Source of the DNA: Eubacteriales bacterium
Lineage (GTDB): Bacteria; Bacillota; Clostridia; Oscillospirales; Oscillospiraceae
Length of the DNA: 18,685 bases
Direction: 5' to 3'
Assembly (NCBI GenBank): GCA_030528965.1
Contig: JAUMXS010000011.1
Span: 1 to 18,685 of the forward strand
Positions 8,586 to 18,580 of this stretch are shown piece by piece; positions within the stretch are counted from its first letter, which is position 1; the number at the start of each line of letters is the position of its first letter. The notes under the pieces are model-generated. The model saw only the letters and a program-made list of their open reading frames with translations. It had not been told where the DNA came from and ran no database searches. The translations under genes were made by a program, and so were the position numbers.

Positions 8586-8614
8586 TTTACAAGCCCGTCT
8601 CAGGGGGATATAAT
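8586..8614 (+). promoter_or_regulatory. Strong sigma-A promoter facing a gene-free region
   Basis: TTTACA (8586-8591), 17 bases, TATAAT (8609-8614). There is no ribosome binding site or credible gene downstream; the transcript meets a terminator about 100 bases later. Confidence 0.75.
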
Positions 8615-8620
8615 ATGGTC

Positions 8621-8720
8621 ACAGCTTATCCAGGGGCGGCGAAAAGCCGCAGCAATCTGAGCTCATATCTTTATCCCACAACCCTGTTCCGGCGGGCCGA
8701 AAACGGTCTGCCGGCTTTTT
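8621..8720 (+). ncRNA. Candidate ~100-nt small non-coding RNA
   Basis: The start is predicted about seven bases after the TATAAT at 8609-8614; the end is the terminator U tract at 8716-8720. Inside, CAGGG (8631-8635) pairs with CCCTG (8682-8686), closing a GCGGC/GCCGC hairpin (8636-8640 with 8646-8650) and an unpaired A/U-rich stretch that could base-pair with targets. The only open frame has no ribosome binding site. It does not show SRP, 6S, tmRNA or RNase P landmarks. Existence is inferred from the promoter-terminator pair. Confidence 0.5.
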
Positions 8721-8722
8721 AT
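8689..8722 (+). terminator. Terminator of the candidate small RNA
   Basis: An 11-base-pair stem (8689-8699 with 8704-8714, two G-U pairs) with an AAAA loop is followed by CTTTTTATT. Confidence 0.8.
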
Positions 8723-8789
8723 TGTTTCGACGTCTCATCAGTTTTCCCGTTTTTTAAAGAACTATTCATGCAAAAGGTCAAAATAAAAA

Positions 8790-8827
8790 CGCAGCGGAAA
8801 CTTTTTCGGTTTCCGCTGCGTTTTTTT
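8790..8827. terminator. Bidirectional terminator after the SGNH lipoprotein gene
   Basis: A perfect 12-base-pair stem (8790-8801 with 8809-8820) is flanked by AAAA on one side and TTTTTTT on the other. It ends the lipoprotein mRNA on the minus strand, nine bases after the stop codon, and can block read-through on the plus strand. Confidence 0.9.
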
Positions 8828-8835
8828 AAAATCGA

Positions 8836-9789
8836 TCACACATAATGGCTGCGCAGATAATCGGCCCAGACGCCGTACTGCGATGCGGAGAAATGCACAC
8901 CGTCGGAGGTAACTTCCGCAGGAAGATATCCGTCAGGACCGGCAAGTGCCTCGCACAGATCCAGATACCATACGCCCTTTTCTCCCGCCAGTTCAACCAG
9001 CGCGTTGTTGAAGCTGTTCACACGCGTCATATTGAAAATGTCGCTGGTGGAGGATTTCGCGTAGCTCACCGGGGTGATGGACATGATATAGATATCCGCA
9101 TCCGGCTGCAGGGCGCAGATCGTGTCCAGCATTTTTCCGTAAGCCTGCTTGAAATAGCCCACATCACAGCCGATCTCATTGATGCCGAGCAGGATATAGA
9201 CCTTGGCATAGGGCTTTTGCGCAATGCCCTGAATGATCGTACCGGACATACCGTTATCCAGCGTAATGGCATTGACGGAATCCACGCCGAGGACGGACAG
9301 GCTGGTGGCAGCATAGTAGTCACATTCTGTGATCCCGGAGAAGAGCTGCAGCCCCTCGACCAGAGAGTTGCCGACAAAGGCGGCATCCCGGAAGAAGCTG
9401 TTATCCACCGGCGTACGGGCCGGAACAACATTCCCGGTCGGTTCCTGGCGGACATATCCCTCGGGCGGCGTCACGATATGATCCGGATCCTCCGTCGCGT
9501 TGGGATCCCCGGTTTCTTCCGGCTGCTCAGTGATCGCGGGATCGGGTTCCTCTGCCGGAGTCGTTTCCTCGGGAGTGGGAGGAAGCGGCTCCACCGGAGC
9601 TGTCTCGACCGGTTCGGTCGTCGGCGGCGTATTCTCGGCGCCGGGTGATTCCTCCGGAGGATCCGTTTGCGTCACTTCGGGCGCTTCCGGGGTGGATACA
9701 GGCAAATTCTGCGAACAGCTGATAAGCAGCAAAGCCATCGTGAGAATAACGAGAATTACGATATGTAAACGGGTCTTGCGTCCGGACAT
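8836..9789 (-). CDS. SGNH-hydrolase-like lipoprotein
   Basis: A 317-residue exported lipoprotein. Residues 1-24 are a signal peptide ending in the lipobox LLIS-C25. Residues 26-115 are a Pro/Glu/Thr-rich, low-complexity spacer that would lift the enzyme through the wall. The catalytic domain (about 130-317) has SGNH landmarks: block I VGNSLVEGL with Ser142, block III LGINEIG with Asn204, and block V SDGVHFS with Asp296 and His299. Block I has Asn in place of the usual Asp (GNSL rather than GDSL). Family members remove acyl or acetyl groups from lipids and cell-wall glycans; a role on wall or extracellular polysaccharide is inferred from location. GAGGTG upstream supports the start. It is monocistronic. 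Confidence 0.87.
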   Translation of the reverse strand: MSGRKTRLHIVILVILTMALLLISCSQNLPVSTPEAPEVTQTDPPEESPGAENTPPTTEPVETAPVEPLPPTPEETTPAEEPDPAITEQPEETGDPNATEDPDHIVTPPEGYVRQEPTGNVVPARTPVDNSFFRDAAFVGNSLVEGLQLFSGITECDYYAATSLSVLGVDSVNAITLDNGMSGTIIQGIAQKPYAKVYILLGINEIGCDVGYFKQAYGKMLDTICALQPDADIYIMSITPVSYAKSSTSDIFNMTRVNSFNNALVELAGEKGVWYLDLCEALAGPDGYLPAEVTSDGVHFSASQYGVWADYLRSHYV

Positions 9790-10082: not shown

Positions 10083-10403
10083 ATGCCGGAACCTGTTTGT
10101 TCCTGCTGCAGCGGGAAGAACAAACGCTATAAAGCCGTTCCGCGGGATGCGGAAACGGTAGAGAAACTGCAGAAGCGGCTGCAGCGTGTGATCGGTCAGT
10201 TGGGCGGCATCAGCCGTATGCTGGACGAAAACCGTTACTGCGGCGACATCCTGATCCAGCTTGCCGCGGCGGAAAGCGCGCTGGAATCGTTCGGTTATAT
10301 CCTCCTGCACGACCACATGGAGACCTGCGTGGTGGAACAGATCCGTCAGGGAAATCTCGCCGTGGTGGACGAAGCCGTCGATCTGATGAAGAAGCTGAAA
10401 TAG
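10083..10403 (+). CDS. csoR: Copper-sensing repressor CsoR
   Basis: A 106-residue all-helical CsoR/RcnR-family protein. The Cu(I) ligands are present with the exact family spacing: Cys53, His78 and Cys82 (25 and 4 residues apart, as in the Bacillus and Mycobacterium proteins). The segment KRLQRVIGQLGGISRMLDENRYCGDIL is the diagnostic second helix. An N-terminal extension CSCCSGK carries three more cysteines, which is common in clostridial members. GGAGGG seven bases upstream sets the start at 10083 although the frame is open further upstream. It is the first gene of the operon, 17 bases before copA, and should repress both through the palindrome at 10018-10034. Confidence 0.93.
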   Translation: MPEPVCSCCSGKNKRYKAVPRDAETVEKLQKRLQRVIGQLGGISRMLDENRYCGDILIQLAAAESALESFGYILLHDHMETCVVEQIRQGNLAVVDEAVDLMKKLK

Positions 10404-10420
10404 TGAGGCGATAATACCCC

Positions 10421-13048
<2,628 letters not shown>

Positions 13049-14341: not shown

Positions 14342-14884
14342 ATGAAGAAGTTTGTTTGCTCCGTATGCGGTTATGTTCACGAGGGCGATACGCCTCCGGA
14401 AAGATGCCCGGTCTGCAAAGTCCCGGCCAGCAAGTTTATGGAACAGAAAGAAGAGCGCAGCTGGGCTGCGGAACATATAGTGGGCGTTGCGAAGGGCGTT
14501 GATCCCGAGATCATCGAAGGTCTGCGCGCAAACTTCGAAGGCGAGTGCAGTGAAGTCGGCATGTATCTGGCGATGGCGCGTGTGGCGCATCGTGAAGGCT
14601 ATCCGGAGATCGGCCTGTATTGGGAAAAGGCCGCCTACGAAGAAGCCGAGCATGCGGCGAAGTTTGCCGAACTGCTGGGCGAGGTCCTGACGGATTCCAC
14701 GAAGAAAAATCTCGAGTTGCGCGTGGATGCCGAAAACGGCGCTACTGCCGGCAAGTATGAGCTTGCCAAGAGAGCCAAAGAGCTGGGCCTTGACGCCATT
14801 CATGACACGGTGCATGAGATGGCCCGCGACGAGGCCCGTCACGGCAAGGCTTTTGAAGGCCTGCTGAAGCGTTACTTCGGCTGA
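14342..14884 (+). CDS. Reverse rubrerythrin (rubredoxin domain first)
   Basis: A 180-residue non-haem iron protein that reduces hydrogen peroxide, and in some species oxygen, to water in anaerobes. The domain order is the reverse of classical rubrerythrin: a rubredoxin-like Fe(Cys)4 site at the N-terminus (Cys6, Cys9, Cys22, Cys25; CSVCGY and CPVCK) followed by a ferritin-like di-iron four-helix bundle (about 55-178). Helix motifs with likely iron ligands are [20 protein letters not shown] with His104, and DEARHGKAF with Glu164 and His167. AGGAGG upstream and a consensus promoter indicate strong expression. It is monocistronic, ended by the hairpin at 14947-14982. Its last 66 bases are echoed at 15982-16047 and 18506-18580. 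Confidence 0.93.
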
Positions 14885-14946
14885 TCCCGTTCCCTTAAAA
14901 AAACAGTTTTTAAACTGATCTCCTTCCTTCTTATTGACCTCTCTAG

Positions 14947-14987
14947 ATACAGTGGGAGCAGAGTGATCTGCTCCCGTTGTATTTTTA
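14947..14987 (+). terminator. Terminator of the rubrerythrin gene
   Basis: A 16-base-pair stem (14947-14962 with 14967-14982, two adjacent G-U pairs) with a GTGA loop is followed by TTTTATCT. Between here and the next promoter (14988-15098) I see no feature. Confidence 0.9.
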
Positions 14988-15098
14988 TCTCCTCGCTTCA
15001 GGGACCACCCAAAAAATCCCTCTCCTTTGGAAAACAAAGGGTATTGATAGTATCGAAAACACGATGCAGTTTTCAGCATTAGGGACAAAAATTTGCGC

Positions 15099-15128
15099 TT
15101 GCCAGCCCATTCTTTCGTATGTTATACT
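15099..15128 (+). promoter_or_regulatory. Promoter of the alpha/beta hydrolase gene
   Basis: TTGCCA (15099-15104), 18 bases, TATACT (15123-15128), about 60 bases before the start codon. Confidence 0.6.
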
Positions 15129-15188
15129 AAGCGAAGCCTTCACTCTTAATATCTGATCAGAGTTTTGAAAGAAATCGGGGACCACCGT

Positions 15189-15959
15189 ATGCTGAAACAC
15201 GAAATCATCGACAATCAGTTGAAAGAATGGGTCGTTTTTATTCACGGACTTGGCGGAAGTTCCAAGACCTGGAAAAACCAGATCAAATCCTTTTCCAAAA
15301 AATATAACTTGTTATTATTGGATCTTCCCGGCCACGGACGCAGTGCGGGCAAAACCATCAACAAAGTAGATCCGCAAAAGCTGCACATCGGAATCAAAGA
15401 AACGCTGGATCATCTGCATATCGACCATGCCCATTTCGTAGGCATGTCTCTCGGTACGATCGTCATTACCAATTTTGCGGTTGACTATCCGGACTATACC
15501 GACACAATTATTTTTGGTGGGTCCGCATTAAAGCTGAACGGAATATACAAAGAAGCCTTGATATTGGCCAACGGCATAAAGCGGCTTGTGCCTTACGAAT
15601 TTTTGTATAAGTTTTTTGCCTGGTTCATGATGCCGAAAAAACGGCACAAAAAATCCCGAATGATCTTTCTGCGGGAAATTGTAAAACTGCGCAAAGAAAC
15701 GCTGTTTGCTTGGATCGAATACCTCAAGTTTGCTCTGCATCCGGATACCGTTCTCGCCAGGCTGGATCATCTCGAAAAAAAGATCCTGCTCATCTCCGGT
15801 GACGAAGACCATTGTTTTATCAAAGGAGCAAGGTCTATTGCAAACAGAATGAAAAACACAGAAATCCGGATCATCAACAGATGCGGGCATGTCTGTTCCA
15901 TTGAAAACTGGAGATCTTTTAATCATATCGCATTGGACTATCTGGCCGCTCTTGAATAA
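15189..15959 (+). CDS. Alpha/beta-fold hydrolase
   Basis: A 256-residue protein. The oxyanion-side motif HGLGGSS (19-25) is followed by LLLDLPGHGRSAG (42-54), the nucleophile elbow GMSLG with Ser87, an acid in SGDEDH (Asp205 or Asp207) and His234 in CGHVCSIE, a complete catalytic triad. A basic, aromatic lid region lies at about 125-180. The fold covers esterases, lipases and cofactor-independent hydrolases; nothing points to a substrate. The start at 15189 is preferred over an in-frame TTG at 15165 since the HGLGG strand begins soon after, but the ribosome binding site (GGGGAC) is weak. The gene is visibly more A/T-rich than its neighbours and lies between the rubrerythrin gene and a diverged copy of that gene's 3' end, so it may be acquired. 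It has its own promoter but no hairpin directly after it. Confidence 0.87.
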   Translation: MLKHEIIDNQLKEWVVFIHGLGGSSKTWKNQIKSFSKKYNLLLLDLPGHGRSAGKTINKVDPQKLHIGIKETLDHLHIDHAHFVGMSLGTIVITNFAVDYPDYTDTIIFGGSALKLNGIYKEALILANGIKRLVPYEFLYKFFAWFMMPKKRHKKSRMIFLREIVKLRKETLFAWIEYLKFALHPDTVLARLDHLEKKILLISGDEDHCFIKGARSIANRMKNTEIRIINRCGHVCSIENWRSFNHIALDYLAALE

Positions 15960-15981
15960 GATCACAAAAAAAGACTGACAG

Positions 15982-16047
15982 ATGGCCCGCGACGAGGCTC
16001 GCCATGGCAAGGCCTTTGAAGGTCTGCTGAATCGTTGCTTCAAGTAA
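15982..16047 (+). pseudogene. Remnant of a rubrerythrin gene (last 21 codons)
   Basis: These 66 bases match the last 66 of the rubrerythrin gene (14819-14884) at 55 positions without gaps and encode [21 protein letters not shown] and a stop. Five of the eleven differences are silent third-position changes, so the tail came from a homologue that had been under selection, not from a recent copy. No start, promoter or remaining rubrerythrin sequence lies upstream. It reads as the scar of a lost second gene or as the boundary left by an integration or recombination event. Confidence 0.8.
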
Positions 16048-16078
16048 TCGACAGTTCTTACATATCAAAGATTTTTCC

Positions 16079-16110
16079 GAGGGGGCATCCGGCGATGCCC
16101 CCTCTTTTTT
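16079..16110 (+). terminator. Terminator after the rubrerythrin remnant
   Basis: A perfect 11-base-pair stem (16079-16089 with 16094-16104) with a CGGC loop is followed by TTTTTT. It probably now ends the hydrolase mRNA and may once have ended the lost rubrerythrin gene. Confidence 0.9.
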
Positions 16111-16157
16111 AAAACAGGACCGCAGCCGCATCAAAACGCGAAAGTCCCTGCGGTACG

Positions 16158-16183
16158 CCCTAAATTTTTTGTAAAATTTAGGG
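16158..16183. promoter_or_regulatory. Palindrome upstream of the DUF1538 promoter, candidate operator
   Basis: A perfect 11-base inverted repeat, CCCTAAATTTT and its complement, with a four-base centre, ends two bases before the -35 of the DUF1538-PII operon. It has no U tract or gene upstream that would make it a terminator, so a regulator binding site is more likely. The regulator is unknown. Confidence 0.5.
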
Positions 16184-16184
16184 A

Positions 16185-16213
16185 TTGTCTTAACTATTAC
16201 AGCCGGATATGAT
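16185..16213 (+). promoter_or_regulatory. Promoter of the DUF1538-PII operon
   Basis: TTGTCT (16185-16190), 17 bases, TATGAT (16208-16213), 44 bases before the TTG start codon. Confidence 0.7.
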
Positions 16214-16257
16214 AAACTGATTAAATACACAACGATTTTGTCCATTGGGGTGATCAA

Positions 16258-17778
16258 TTGAAATTCCTGAATCCCAAAATGCAAAGCAAGCTGTCGGAAG
16301 CGCTGCTGGCCGTGGGTCCGGTCCTTGCGATCGTACTGGTACTGAGCTTCACGGTGGCGCCGGTTTCCCCCAGCATCCTGCTGAGCTTCCTGATGGGCGC
16401 TGTACTGGTCATGGTCGGCATGATGTTTTTCACACTGGACGCGGAGATCTCCATGACGCCTATGGGTGAAAAAGTGGGCGCAAAAATGACCCGAACCAAA
16501 AAAATATGGTTCATCGTTCTGCTGAGCTTTGTACTGGGCGTCATAATCACCATTTCGGAGCCGGATCTGCAGGTCCTGGCCGAGCTGGTGCCTTCCATCC
16601 CCAACCAGGCCCTCATTTTAACTGTTGCGGTCGGTGTCGGTCTGTTTCTTGTGGTCGCCATTCTGCGTATGCTGCTGGGCATTTCCCTGTCCCATCTGTT
16701 GGTGGGGCTTTATATCCTCGTTTTTATTCTGGCCTTTCTGGTCCCCGGTGATTTCCGCGCCATCGCCTTCGACTCCGGCGGCGTGACCACCGGTCCCATG
16801 ACGGTGCCGTTCATCATGGCACTGGGCGTCGGCATCTCTGCCATTCGTAACGACAAAGCTGCCGCAGATGACAGCTTCGGTCTGGTGTCGCTGTGCTCCG
16901 TCGGCCCCATCCTCGCGGTGCTGATCCTGGGCATGATCTTCAAGCCCGGCGAAAGCGCGCCGGAGATCATCCAAAACCTCCAGATCAGCGACACGGTGGA
17001 GCTTGGGAAAATGTTTGCGCGGGAGCTTCCCGCTTATATCGAGGAGATCGCAGTCTCTCTGCTTCCCATCGTGGTTTTCTTCGGCGTGTTTCAGGTCTTT
17101 TCTCTCCGCCTTTCCGGCAGACGCCTGAGTAAGATCGTGGTGGGTCTGGTCTATACTTATATCGGTCTGGTACTGTTCCTGACCGGTGCGAATGTGGGCT
17201 TCATGCCCACCGGTACCTATCTGGGCAGTGTGATCGCCGGAAAAGCCTACCGATATCTTCTTATCCCCATCGGCGCGATCATCGGTTATTTCATCGTTAA
17301 AGCCGAGCCGGCCGTCTATGTACTTAACCATCAGGTCGAAGAGATCACCGACGGCGCCATTTCCGCCAGAGCCATGGGCACCAGCCTTTCTCTCGGCGTT
17401 GCCGCCTCGGTGGCACTGGCCATGACCCGTGTGCTGACCGGTATCCCCATTTTGTATTTCCTGATCCCCGGTTATGCCATCGCCTTGGGACTGAGTTTCG
17501 TTGTCCCGAAGATCTTTACCGCCATCGCCTTCGACTCCGGCGGCGTAGCCTCCGGCCCCATGACCGCCACTTTCCTGCTCCCTTTGGCGCAGGGCGCCTG
17601 TGTGGCCGTGGGCGGAAACCTGGCCTCCGATGCCTTCGGTGTCGTCGCCATGGTCGCGATGACGCCCCTGATCACCATCCAGATCCTTGGCCTTGTCACC
17701 GTCATCAAAAACCGCAGACGCTCCGGCGGCGAGTTTGTCCCCTATGACGCAGATGAGGATGCGATCATCGAACTTTGA
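16258..17778 (+). CDS. DUF1538 polytopic membrane protein, putative transporter
   Basis: A 506-residue protein with roughly twelve hydrophobic segments and no signal peptide. It is an internal duplication: four motif pairs recur about 250 residues apart, LDAEISMTPMGEKVG/TGANVGFMPTGTYLG (60-74, 309-323), SEPDLQVL/AEPAVYVL (100-107, 349-356), AIAFDSGGVTTGPMT/AIAFDSGGVASGPMT (168-182, 422-436) and DDSFGLVS/SDAFGVVA (204-211, 457-464). The FDSGGV-x-x-GPMT signature with its Asp is the hallmark of DUF1538. Two repeats with matched charged residues inside membrane segments suggest an inverted- or tandem-repeat transporter; the substrate is unknown. The start is TTG at 16258, with GGGGTG six bases upstream. 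The PII-like gene follows 17 bases later, so the pair form an operon. Confidence 0.88.
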   Translation: MKFLNPKMQSKLSEALLAVGPVLAIVLVLSFTVAPVSPSILLSFLMGAVLVMVGMMFFTLDAEISMTPMGEKVGAKMTRTKKIWFIVLLSFVLGVIITISEPDLQVLAELVPSIPNQALILTVAVGVGLFLVVAILRMLLGISLSHLLVGLYILVFILAFLVPGDFRAIAFDSGGVTTGPMTVPFIMALGVGISAIRNDKAAADDSFGLVSLCSVGPILAVLILGMIFKPGESAPEIIQNLQISDTVELGKMFARELPAYIEEIAVSLLPIVVFFGVFQVFSLRLSGRRLSKIVVGLVYTYIGLVLFLTGANVGFMPTGTYLGSVIAGKAYRYLLIPIGAIIGYFIVKAEPAVYVLNHQVEEITDGAISARAMGTSLSLGVAASVALAMTRVLTGIPILYFLIPGYAIALGLSFVVPKIFTAIAFDSGGVASGPMTATFLLPLAQGACVAVGGNLASDAFGVVAMVAMTPLITIQILGLVTVIKNRRRSGGEFVPYDADEDAIIEL

Positions 17779-17795
17779 TTTCCGGAGGGTAGTAT

Positions 17796-18482
17796 ATGAG
17801 TGAATTATCCATGCTGGTGACCATCACCGCCCGAAAACTGAAAAAAAAGTTTATAGGCTTCTATGAAGAAATGGACCTTCCCGTTTCTTTCATTACCCTC
17901 GGCCGCGGCACCGCCTCCAGTGAGATCCTGGACTATTTCGGCCTTGACGGTTCGGAGAAGAGCGTTTTGATGCATATCGTCACGGATACCAAATGGAAGG
18001 AAGTCAAGCGCCAGCTCAGACGGAAAATGAACATCGATATTCCCGGCATCGGCATTTCGTTCCTTGTCCCCTTAAGCAGCATCGGCGGAGCAAAAGCGCT
18101 GCATTATCTCACCGCCCATCAGGATTACGTAAAAGGAGAGGAATCAACGTTGAAGGATACGAAATATGAACTGCTTATCACCATTTCCAATCAGGGCTAT
18201 ACCGAACTGATCATGGATGCGGCCCGTAAGGTTCATGCTGCCGGCGGCACCGTCATCCACGCCAAGGGCACCGGCACCCACCTCGCCGAAAAATTCATGG
18301 GCGTAACGCTGGTTCCCGAAAAGGAAATGATCTTCATCGTCGTGCGCAAATCCCAGAAAAACGATATCATGCGCGCCATTATGGATGAGGCCGGCACCGG
18401 AACCCCGGCCGGCGCTATCGTGTTTTCTCTGCCTGTGACCGACACCGCCGGTATGCGGATGATGGAGGAGCTCGAGGAATAA
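17796..18482 (+). CDS. Double-domain PII-like signalling protein
   Basis: A 228-residue protein with two PII-fold halves joined near residue 115. The second half (120-228) is close to the nitrogen-regulatory PII family: ELLITISNQGYTELIMDAARKVHAAGGTVI, a short T-loop region (HAKGTGTHLAEKF), EKEMIFIVVRKSQKNDIMRAI and a B-loop-like AGTGTPAGAIVFSLPV. The first half (1-115) is more diverged but keeps the order, with ITLGRGTAS, VLMHIVTDTKWKEVKRQL and MNIDIPGIGISFLVPLS. Classical GlnB is one 112-residue unit with a uridylylated Tyr51; no such tyrosine is evident here. PII proteins bind ATP/ADP and 2-oxoglutarate and gate transporters, so control of the DUF1538 partner is the natural inference. GGAGGG six bases upstream sets the start. 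It is second in the operon. Confidence 0.85.
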   Translation: MSELSMLVTITARKLKKKFIGFYEEMDLPVSFITLGRGTASSEILDYFGLDGSEKSVLMHIVTDTKWKEVKRQLRRKMNIDIPGIGISFLVPLSSIGGAKALHYLTAHQDYVKGEESTLKDTKYELLITISNQGYTELIMDAARKVHAAGGTVIHAKGTGTHLAEKFMGVTLVPEKEMIFIVVRKSQKNDIMRAIMDEAGTGTPAGAIVFSLPVTDTAGMRMMEELEE

Positions 18483-18485
18483 GAC

Positions 18486-18504
18486 CTGCCGGTCAGGCCG
18501 GCAG
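18486..18504 (+). terminator. Hairpin after the PII-like gene, weak terminator
   Basis: A seven-base-pair G+C stem (18486-18492 with 18498-18504) with a five-base loop lies three bases after the stop codon but has no U tract, so termination efficiency is doubtful. Confidence 0.4.
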
Positions 18505-18505
18505 A

Positions 18506-18580
18506 ATGATCCCGCAGCAAGACCCGTCACGGCAAAGTCCGTCACTTTGTGGTCTCCCGAAGAGATACTTCGGCGGATCC
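18506..18580 (+). pseudogene. Second, decayed remnant of the rubrerythrin gene end
   Basis: Two blocks match the end of the rubrerythrin gene: CCCGTCACGGCAA (18523-18535 against 14835-14847) and TACTTCGGC-x-GATCC (18566-18580 against 14873-14887). The blocks lie five bases further apart than in the intact gene, and the sequence before the first (ATG, CCCGC) also aligns. Reading frame is lost. The match crosses the stop codon into the bases beyond it. From 18591 to the window end I see no gene or signal. Confidence 0.65.

Follow-up and report, generated by a model that had tools for sequence, protein, structure and literature searches.

The 3' end of the rubrerythrin gene as a probable integration site for tyrosine integrases in Clostridia

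Background

Why should the end of a rubrerythrin gene be found three times in one bacterial contig, with other genes in between? The question is raised by a stretch of 18,685 nucleotides (the window, a whole contig, G000:C135) from a 1.25-Mb, 71% complete draft genome of the Oscillospiraceae. The initial annotation considered either a decaying tandem array of rubrerythrin genes, or a gene end repeatedly used for integration. In our reading the 3' end of the rubrerythrin gene (rbr) is probably the attB site of tyrosine integrases, and the two orphan tails of the window would be the scars of at least two integrations. Tails, their association with integrases and inserts have been observed in other genomes, and the history of the window is reconstructed from them.

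Rubrerythrin tails in the window

The features of the region, all on the + strand, are the following.

14342..14884, +, intact rubrerythrin gene (180 aa; Pfam RUBY_RBDX and Rubrerythrin), proposed integration target
14819..14884, +, tail copy 1, the last 66 bases of the intact gene, proposed proximal att site (attL)
14940..14985, +, terminator-like hairpin and T-rich stretch after the intact gene (fold -26.0 kcal/mol; absent from the consensus-scan list)
15099..15128, +, promoter-like site before the hydrolase (10/12, TG before the second hexamer), weak
15189..15959, +, alpha/beta hydrolase, 256 aa, probable foreign cargo (Pfam; G+C)
15980..16047, +, tail copy 2, orphan rbr 3' end, proposed att scar
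16079..16110, +, intrinsic terminator immediately after copy 2 (-23.6 kcal/mol; consensus scan)
16258..17778, +, DUF1538 membrane protein, cargo or native (Pfam)
17796..18482, +, P-II family protein, cargo or native (Pfam)
18511..18577, +, tail copy 3, decayed orphan rbr 3' end, proposed oldest att scar

Whole rbr genes 81-86% identical to that of the window reside in several genomes of the same family. Similarity to the gene end begins in copy 2 at 15980, and 55 of 66 bases match copy 1 without gaps (15982-16047). Nine codons differ; counting the stop codon, six of the differences are silent, and the copy can still be read as protein (25 letters). The alignment of copy 3 is gapped, and scores 55 to copy 1 versus 34 to copy 2. 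In 2000 dinucleotide-preserving shuffles for each copy, none reached the local scores of copy 2 (92) or copy 3 (55), the shuffle maxima being 42 and 39, respectively; elsewhere in the window, the best independent site reaches 38 (+ strand) and 31 (- strand). The three copies first proposed by inspection are thus real, the third included once properly aligned, and their coordinates were exact for copies 1 and 2 and a few bases off for copy 3. Copy 3, the farther and more decayed, probably marks an older integration than copy 2. Since the window is a whole contig, the readable sequence stops ~105 bases past copy 3. Upstream of the region, at 10122-13048, a metal-sensitive repressor gene (Trns_repr_metal) is followed by one for a heavy-metal P-type ATPase with two HMA domains.

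The hydrolase is probably foreign in origin. Its segment has a G+C content of 0.43 versus 0.54 for the window, and the protein finds no match at E<=1e-25 in 109 other genomes of the family, nor at 1e-60 in any of 320 other genomes of the class. Close relatives occur in metagenomes (the best 81% identical), and one named match is from Lachnospiraceae. DUF1538 is found in 49 of the 109 other family genomes (1e-60; best G428, 83%, and G453, 76%), and the DUF1538/PII pair may be native and not cargo. By coordinates, DUF1538 lies less than 11 kb from rbr in two genomes, G453 (~5 kb) and G450 (~10 kb), in neither of them directly after it. Promoter-like sites number 8 in the region versus 3.5 expected (sd 1.7). 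The sequences after the three tails, compared with those after rbr in relatives, gave best scores near the shuffle maximum.

Neither module of the window holds an integrase or a recognisable remnant between the repeats. Six integrases used as queries found no match in the window below E=0.1, and none of 232 ORFs from the elements described below matches it at 1e-3. Across the loci compared, module ORFs did not recur from one locus to another, integrase pieces and two weak matches excepted. No Phage_integrase domain was detected in the draft genome, while the same domain was detected in 14 of 14 control genomes; since even the usual chromosomal recombinases with this domain are missing, incompleteness is a possible reason for the lack of an integrase. 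The modules may be scars, and are not complete members of the class of rbr-integrated elements.

Recurrence of rubrerythrin tails

Second copies of rbr segments were searched in 98 loci with a whole rbr gene (the window, 17 relatives and 80 loci from a genome collection). The last 75 bases of the gene (plus 5) recur outside it in 8 of the 98, always downstream and on the same strand. The start of the gene and two middle segments recur in none (0/98 each), and the ends of other ORFs, taken as a control, in 5 of 728. Fisher tests of tail recurrence against the controls gave p=2.3e-5 (versus other ORF ends) and p=1.2e-5.

A scan of relatives for the same gene end, suggested by the initial annotation, was productive. 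Tail matches were found in 87 of 110 family genomes, and orphan-like tails in 13 of the 110, the genome of the window included. Of these 13, four lie close to the edge of a contig, and in one (G456) tail and terminator have been duplicated in tandem. In the eight genomes in which an orphan and a full rbr share a contig, the orphan is invariably downstream and on the same strand (8/8).

Several candidates were set aside. The additional tails of G456 were rejected as elements, being tandem duplications. Tails at contig edges (G271, G273, G110, G302 and L203), or ~110 bases or less from an edge (G415, G436, G453 and G465), were excluded from the proof; the identical stretch common to the two contigs of G273 has the appearance of an assembly overlap. 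ORFs of ~420 aa carrying the rbr end, as in G205 and others, were rejected as orphans, the ORF of G205 containing a second whole rubrerythrin. In this genome (L167, 1534-3371) two whole rubrerythrin genes are arranged in tandem, the second within a 417-aa ORF.

Contigs show a weak bias to end 3' of rbr (8 versus 1 of 80 within 1 kb, p=0.04; 4 versus 0 within 500 bases, p=0.125). If the integration hypothesis is true, it offers a reason for contig breaks after rbr, and orphan tails become a simple search rule for the ends of elements.

A family of integrases beside the tails

An alignment of six integrases, searched at E<=1e-40, defines an integrase family (A1) found in 5 of 110 family, 13 of 394 order and 11 of 391 class genomes. 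The order and class searches (785 sampled genomes) yielded 26 loci in 24 genomes, one of the loci (L183) deriving from a seed of the alignment. An rbr gene or tail lies within the fetched locus in 21 of the 26, at 0.5 kb or less from the integrase match in 20 and at ~0.65 kb in one. In the remaining five, rbr is on the same contig ~3.6 kb away (L186), the match is the second half of a split gene (L188), the integrase lacks its first part (L199), or is distant, with E about 1e-50 (L204 and L205).

The 21 loci comprise 8 of type I, 12 of type II, and one with the tail behind the integrase. In type I, the orphan tail is immediately preceded by a tyrosine integrase gene of opposite orientation. 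This layout was seen in G182, G419, G457, G077, G319, G531, G229, G194, G421, G158 and G589, and those integrases that were tested carry PF00589. Direct repeats of the rbr end bound the elements in the first eight of these genomes, the distance from rbr to orphan being 13.0 kb in G182, 11.6 in G419, 6.4 in G457, 8.8 in G077, 8.9 in G319, 6.5 in G531, 4.0 and 4.2 in G229, and 51 kb in G194. Type I elements of G413, G414 and G224 have no distal tail near the integrase. In type II, the integrase comes just after rbr, on the same strand; six such loci searched over 5-19 kb contain no convincing distal tail, one candidate scoring 38 versus a shuffle maximum of 33. The lack of distal tails in these type I and type II loci speaks against the integration hypothesis.

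The locus of G194 is nested. A Mu-like prophage of ~37 kb (G194:C6, L140-L142) splits the integrase gene of the rbr-integrated element; the integrase halves, ~37 kb apart, enclose genes for a DNA transposition protein, a portal of the Mu type, a terminase, a sheath and a tape measure. Past the rbr stop, the repeat continues across a rubredoxin gene (PF00301) in G194 and G319, and across a gene for a BFD-like [2Fe-2S] protein (PF04324) in G421. As the repeat spans the gene after rbr, the integrated element brings in a second copy of that gene.

Could tails be duplicated locally by replication slippage or homologous recombination, with no integrase involved? Events of this sort do occur, as indicated by the tandem duplication of tail and terminator in G456 and by a 42-base copy 14 bases past the gene in L123, and copy 2 of the window also has no integrase at its side. 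Local duplication is nevertheless an unlikely explanation, leaving unaccounted for the integrase beside 21 of 26 loci, the presence of the tail in a phage, and the low rate of duplication at other gene ends (5/728).

A tail on a phage contig

The tail in question is found in contig IMGVR_UViG_3300021256_000475 (L136), and corresponds to residues 151-180 (97% identical) plus the stop codon. It sits where the attP site of a phage is expected, the 5' end of the gene for a tyrosine integrase being 135 bases away. Phage genes lie on both sides, those for a DnaB-like helicase, a Sak annealing protein and an N6 methylase on one, that for a packaging protein on the other. The octamer AGTCTGTC occurs six times on the contig versus 0.29 expected, and four of the occurrences flank the tail. 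Four viral scans returned no second contig with a tail beside an integrase. Six records of a phage collection matching the tail were rejected as attP, five carrying a whole rubrerythrin and one a tail at a contig edge. The one tail match among plasmids, on a large replicon of Vescimonas, bears the annotation NADH peroxidase.

Empty sites and identity along the repeats

Strains free of the hydrolase or of the DUF1538/PII pair should, according to the initial annotation, show one continuous rbr end at the junction; among relatives of the window, comparisons that agree with such empty sites have been obtained for two elements. The ORFs that follow the orphan in G182 have counterparts, arranged in the same order, behind rbr in four of nine loci of the same genus (G403, G332, G350 and G356; 37-83% identity by segment), the remaining five matching neither side. 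In G194, the ORF next to the orphan shares 78% identity with the one that comes first behind rbr in G381, the one locus compared (1/1). The ORFs after the intact rbr of G182 and G194 have no match in the compared loci other than another integrase. G271 matched neither of two same-genus loci on either side (0/2).

These comparisons bear on the hypothesis that a tandem rubrerythrin array decayed to 3' remnants, and that other genes were inserted between them. The hypothesis accommodates the coding-like pattern of copy 2, in which 6 of 9 codon differences are silent, and true tandem rubrerythrins do exist in the family, as the two whole copies of G205 illustrate. Against it stand the restriction of recurrence to the gene end (8/98, versus 0/98 for the start and middle segments), the integrases beside tails, the attP-like site of the phage, and the empty sites, which refute it for the relatives. 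The decaying array of the initial annotation is hence not supported, and has little chance of being the correct account.

Identity between intact and orphan copies was profiled codon by codon in 28 pairs, two G456 rows having been left out of 30. Twelve bases upstream of the RHG motif's His codon, mean identity is 0.80; it ranges from 0.82 to 0.96 from there to the Gly before the stop, and is 0.88 at the stop; past it, identity falls to 0.58 just after and 0.36 twelve bases on. Third codon positions vary most. The suggestion of the initial annotation that incoming DNA carries its own, silently diverged gene end fits this profile. The repeat ends near the stop, from 7 bases upstream to 11 downstream, in 22 of 28 measurable pairs, and runs on in six (G194, G271, G319, G421 and both G456 rows). 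The profile also speaks against the idea that tails serve as regulatory or terminator cassettes, maintained to end transcription, since identity sits in the coding tail and drops past the stop; a hairpin follows the intact end, copy 2 and, by eye, the phage copy, but no T-rich hairpin of the terminator kind was seen at copy 3 among the folds made, and this explanation is highly improbable.

Where the exchange took place has been approached by asking which copy resembles the host. In G182, compared with the host relative G403, the intact copy is favoured at 16 of 17 differing sites between -115 and -25, and the sites beyond -25 are divided, three siding with the orphan, two with the intact copy and one with neither. 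On visual inspection, the terminator of G403 is like the one behind the orphan and unlike the one behind the intact gene. Votes are mixed throughout in G194. These comparisons place the exchange in the tail region, and no more exactly than that.

A model for the formation of tails

In the model proposed, the integrase family would be carried by small integrative elements, and by at least one phage, in Clostridia. Next to its integrase, an element would have its own copy of the tail; upon recombination inside the tail, this copy would complete the host gene, leaving the protein unchanged or nearly so, and the displaced host end would become the orphan tail on the far side of the element. The model predicts that the integrase carries out the recombination and that the element is excised as a circle, for which the phage contig provides indirect support. 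In the window at least two successive integrations may have occurred; integrases would have been lost by deletion, copies 2 and 3 remaining as scars, between which the foreign hydrolase and possibly also the DUF1538/PII pair were left. As the window and the draft genome have no integrase, this history of at least two decayed integrations is inferred. The recurrent integration site envisaged by the initial annotation is therefore sustained in relatives, by tails that recur alone, by integrases, by a phage and by two empty sites; the DUF1538/PII pair, whose import is also part of that proposal, may be either cargo or native.

Modules bounded by rbr tails and free of integrases are ~0.3-3 kb in size; they contain the hydrolase in the window, a ribonuclease and barstar pair in L105, a small zinc-ribbon-like protein in L052, and single small ORFs in other loci. 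G459, in which only a short integrase fragment (E=8e-5) is found beside the orphan, is an example of decay. Alternatively, the short modules could be not decayed elements but cassettes moved in trans by rbr-specific integrases, the rbr end acting as a platform for integron-like arrays, a possibility we regard as unlikely. A large serine recombinase gene found after the last L052 tail has not been tied to the site, its only other match among the loci being a weak one in L119.

Relation to known systems

In temperate phages attP resides beside int, and is associated with arm-type repeats. The phage contig described above, with tail, integrase and flanking octamer repeats, has the same layout; the attB site, in contrast, is here the end of rubrerythrin and not a tRNA gene. 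SCC elements of staphylococci insert at the 3' end of rlmH by means of serine recombinases. Tandem insertions at one gene end, several direct repeats, and pieces without recombinase genes are features that rbr-integrated elements would share with SCC, from which they differ in that their recombinases are tyrosine integrases.

That tyrosine integrases insert DNA at the 3' ends of conserved protein genes is already known. According to PMC4701971, streptococcal ICEs use site-specific tyrosine integrases, and target the 3' ends of rplL, rpsI, lysS, rpmG and guaA. The rbr elements share with these ICEs the enzyme type, the choice of a conserved protein gene's 3' end, direct repeats containing the exact gene end (12-54 bp in the ICEs), a gene product unchanged or nearly so, and integrases that group by target (PMC4701971). 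Differences are also evident. The target is rbr, the elements described here are 4-13 kb in size, no conjugation genes were found among the ORFs scanned, and repeats reach 170-240 bases, including the whole rubredoxin gene in G194 and G319. Rubrerythrin as an integration target was not found in a literature search of limited depth, and the rbr 3' end is not the subject of PMC1924603 or PMC5025042 as far as excerpts of the two papers go. If the hypothesis is correct, rubrerythrin, a gene for peroxide defence in anaerobes, is a docking site for mobile DNA widely shared among Clostridia, and the last residues of rubrerythrin in lysogens, sometimes along with the next rubredoxin gene, are predicted to come from the element.

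Genes carried by type I elements and by a short module

Within ~1.2 kb of the intact rbr, five type I elements encode members of a small protein family (~120-170 aa, 25-88% identity to the L143 member), often as two genes; two members tested had no Pfam match. Members are located as follows.

L143:15605-16039
L152:3192-3680
L209:8793-9834
L212:8885-9696
L142:15500-16663

A regulator with a WYL domain adjoins the integrase in three type I elements (L152:11182-12300, L209:2967-3845 and L212:2810-3904). In L105, the interval from rbr to an orphan tail holds, at 8591-9507, genes for a ribonuclease of the barnase type (PF00545) and for a barstar (PF01337).
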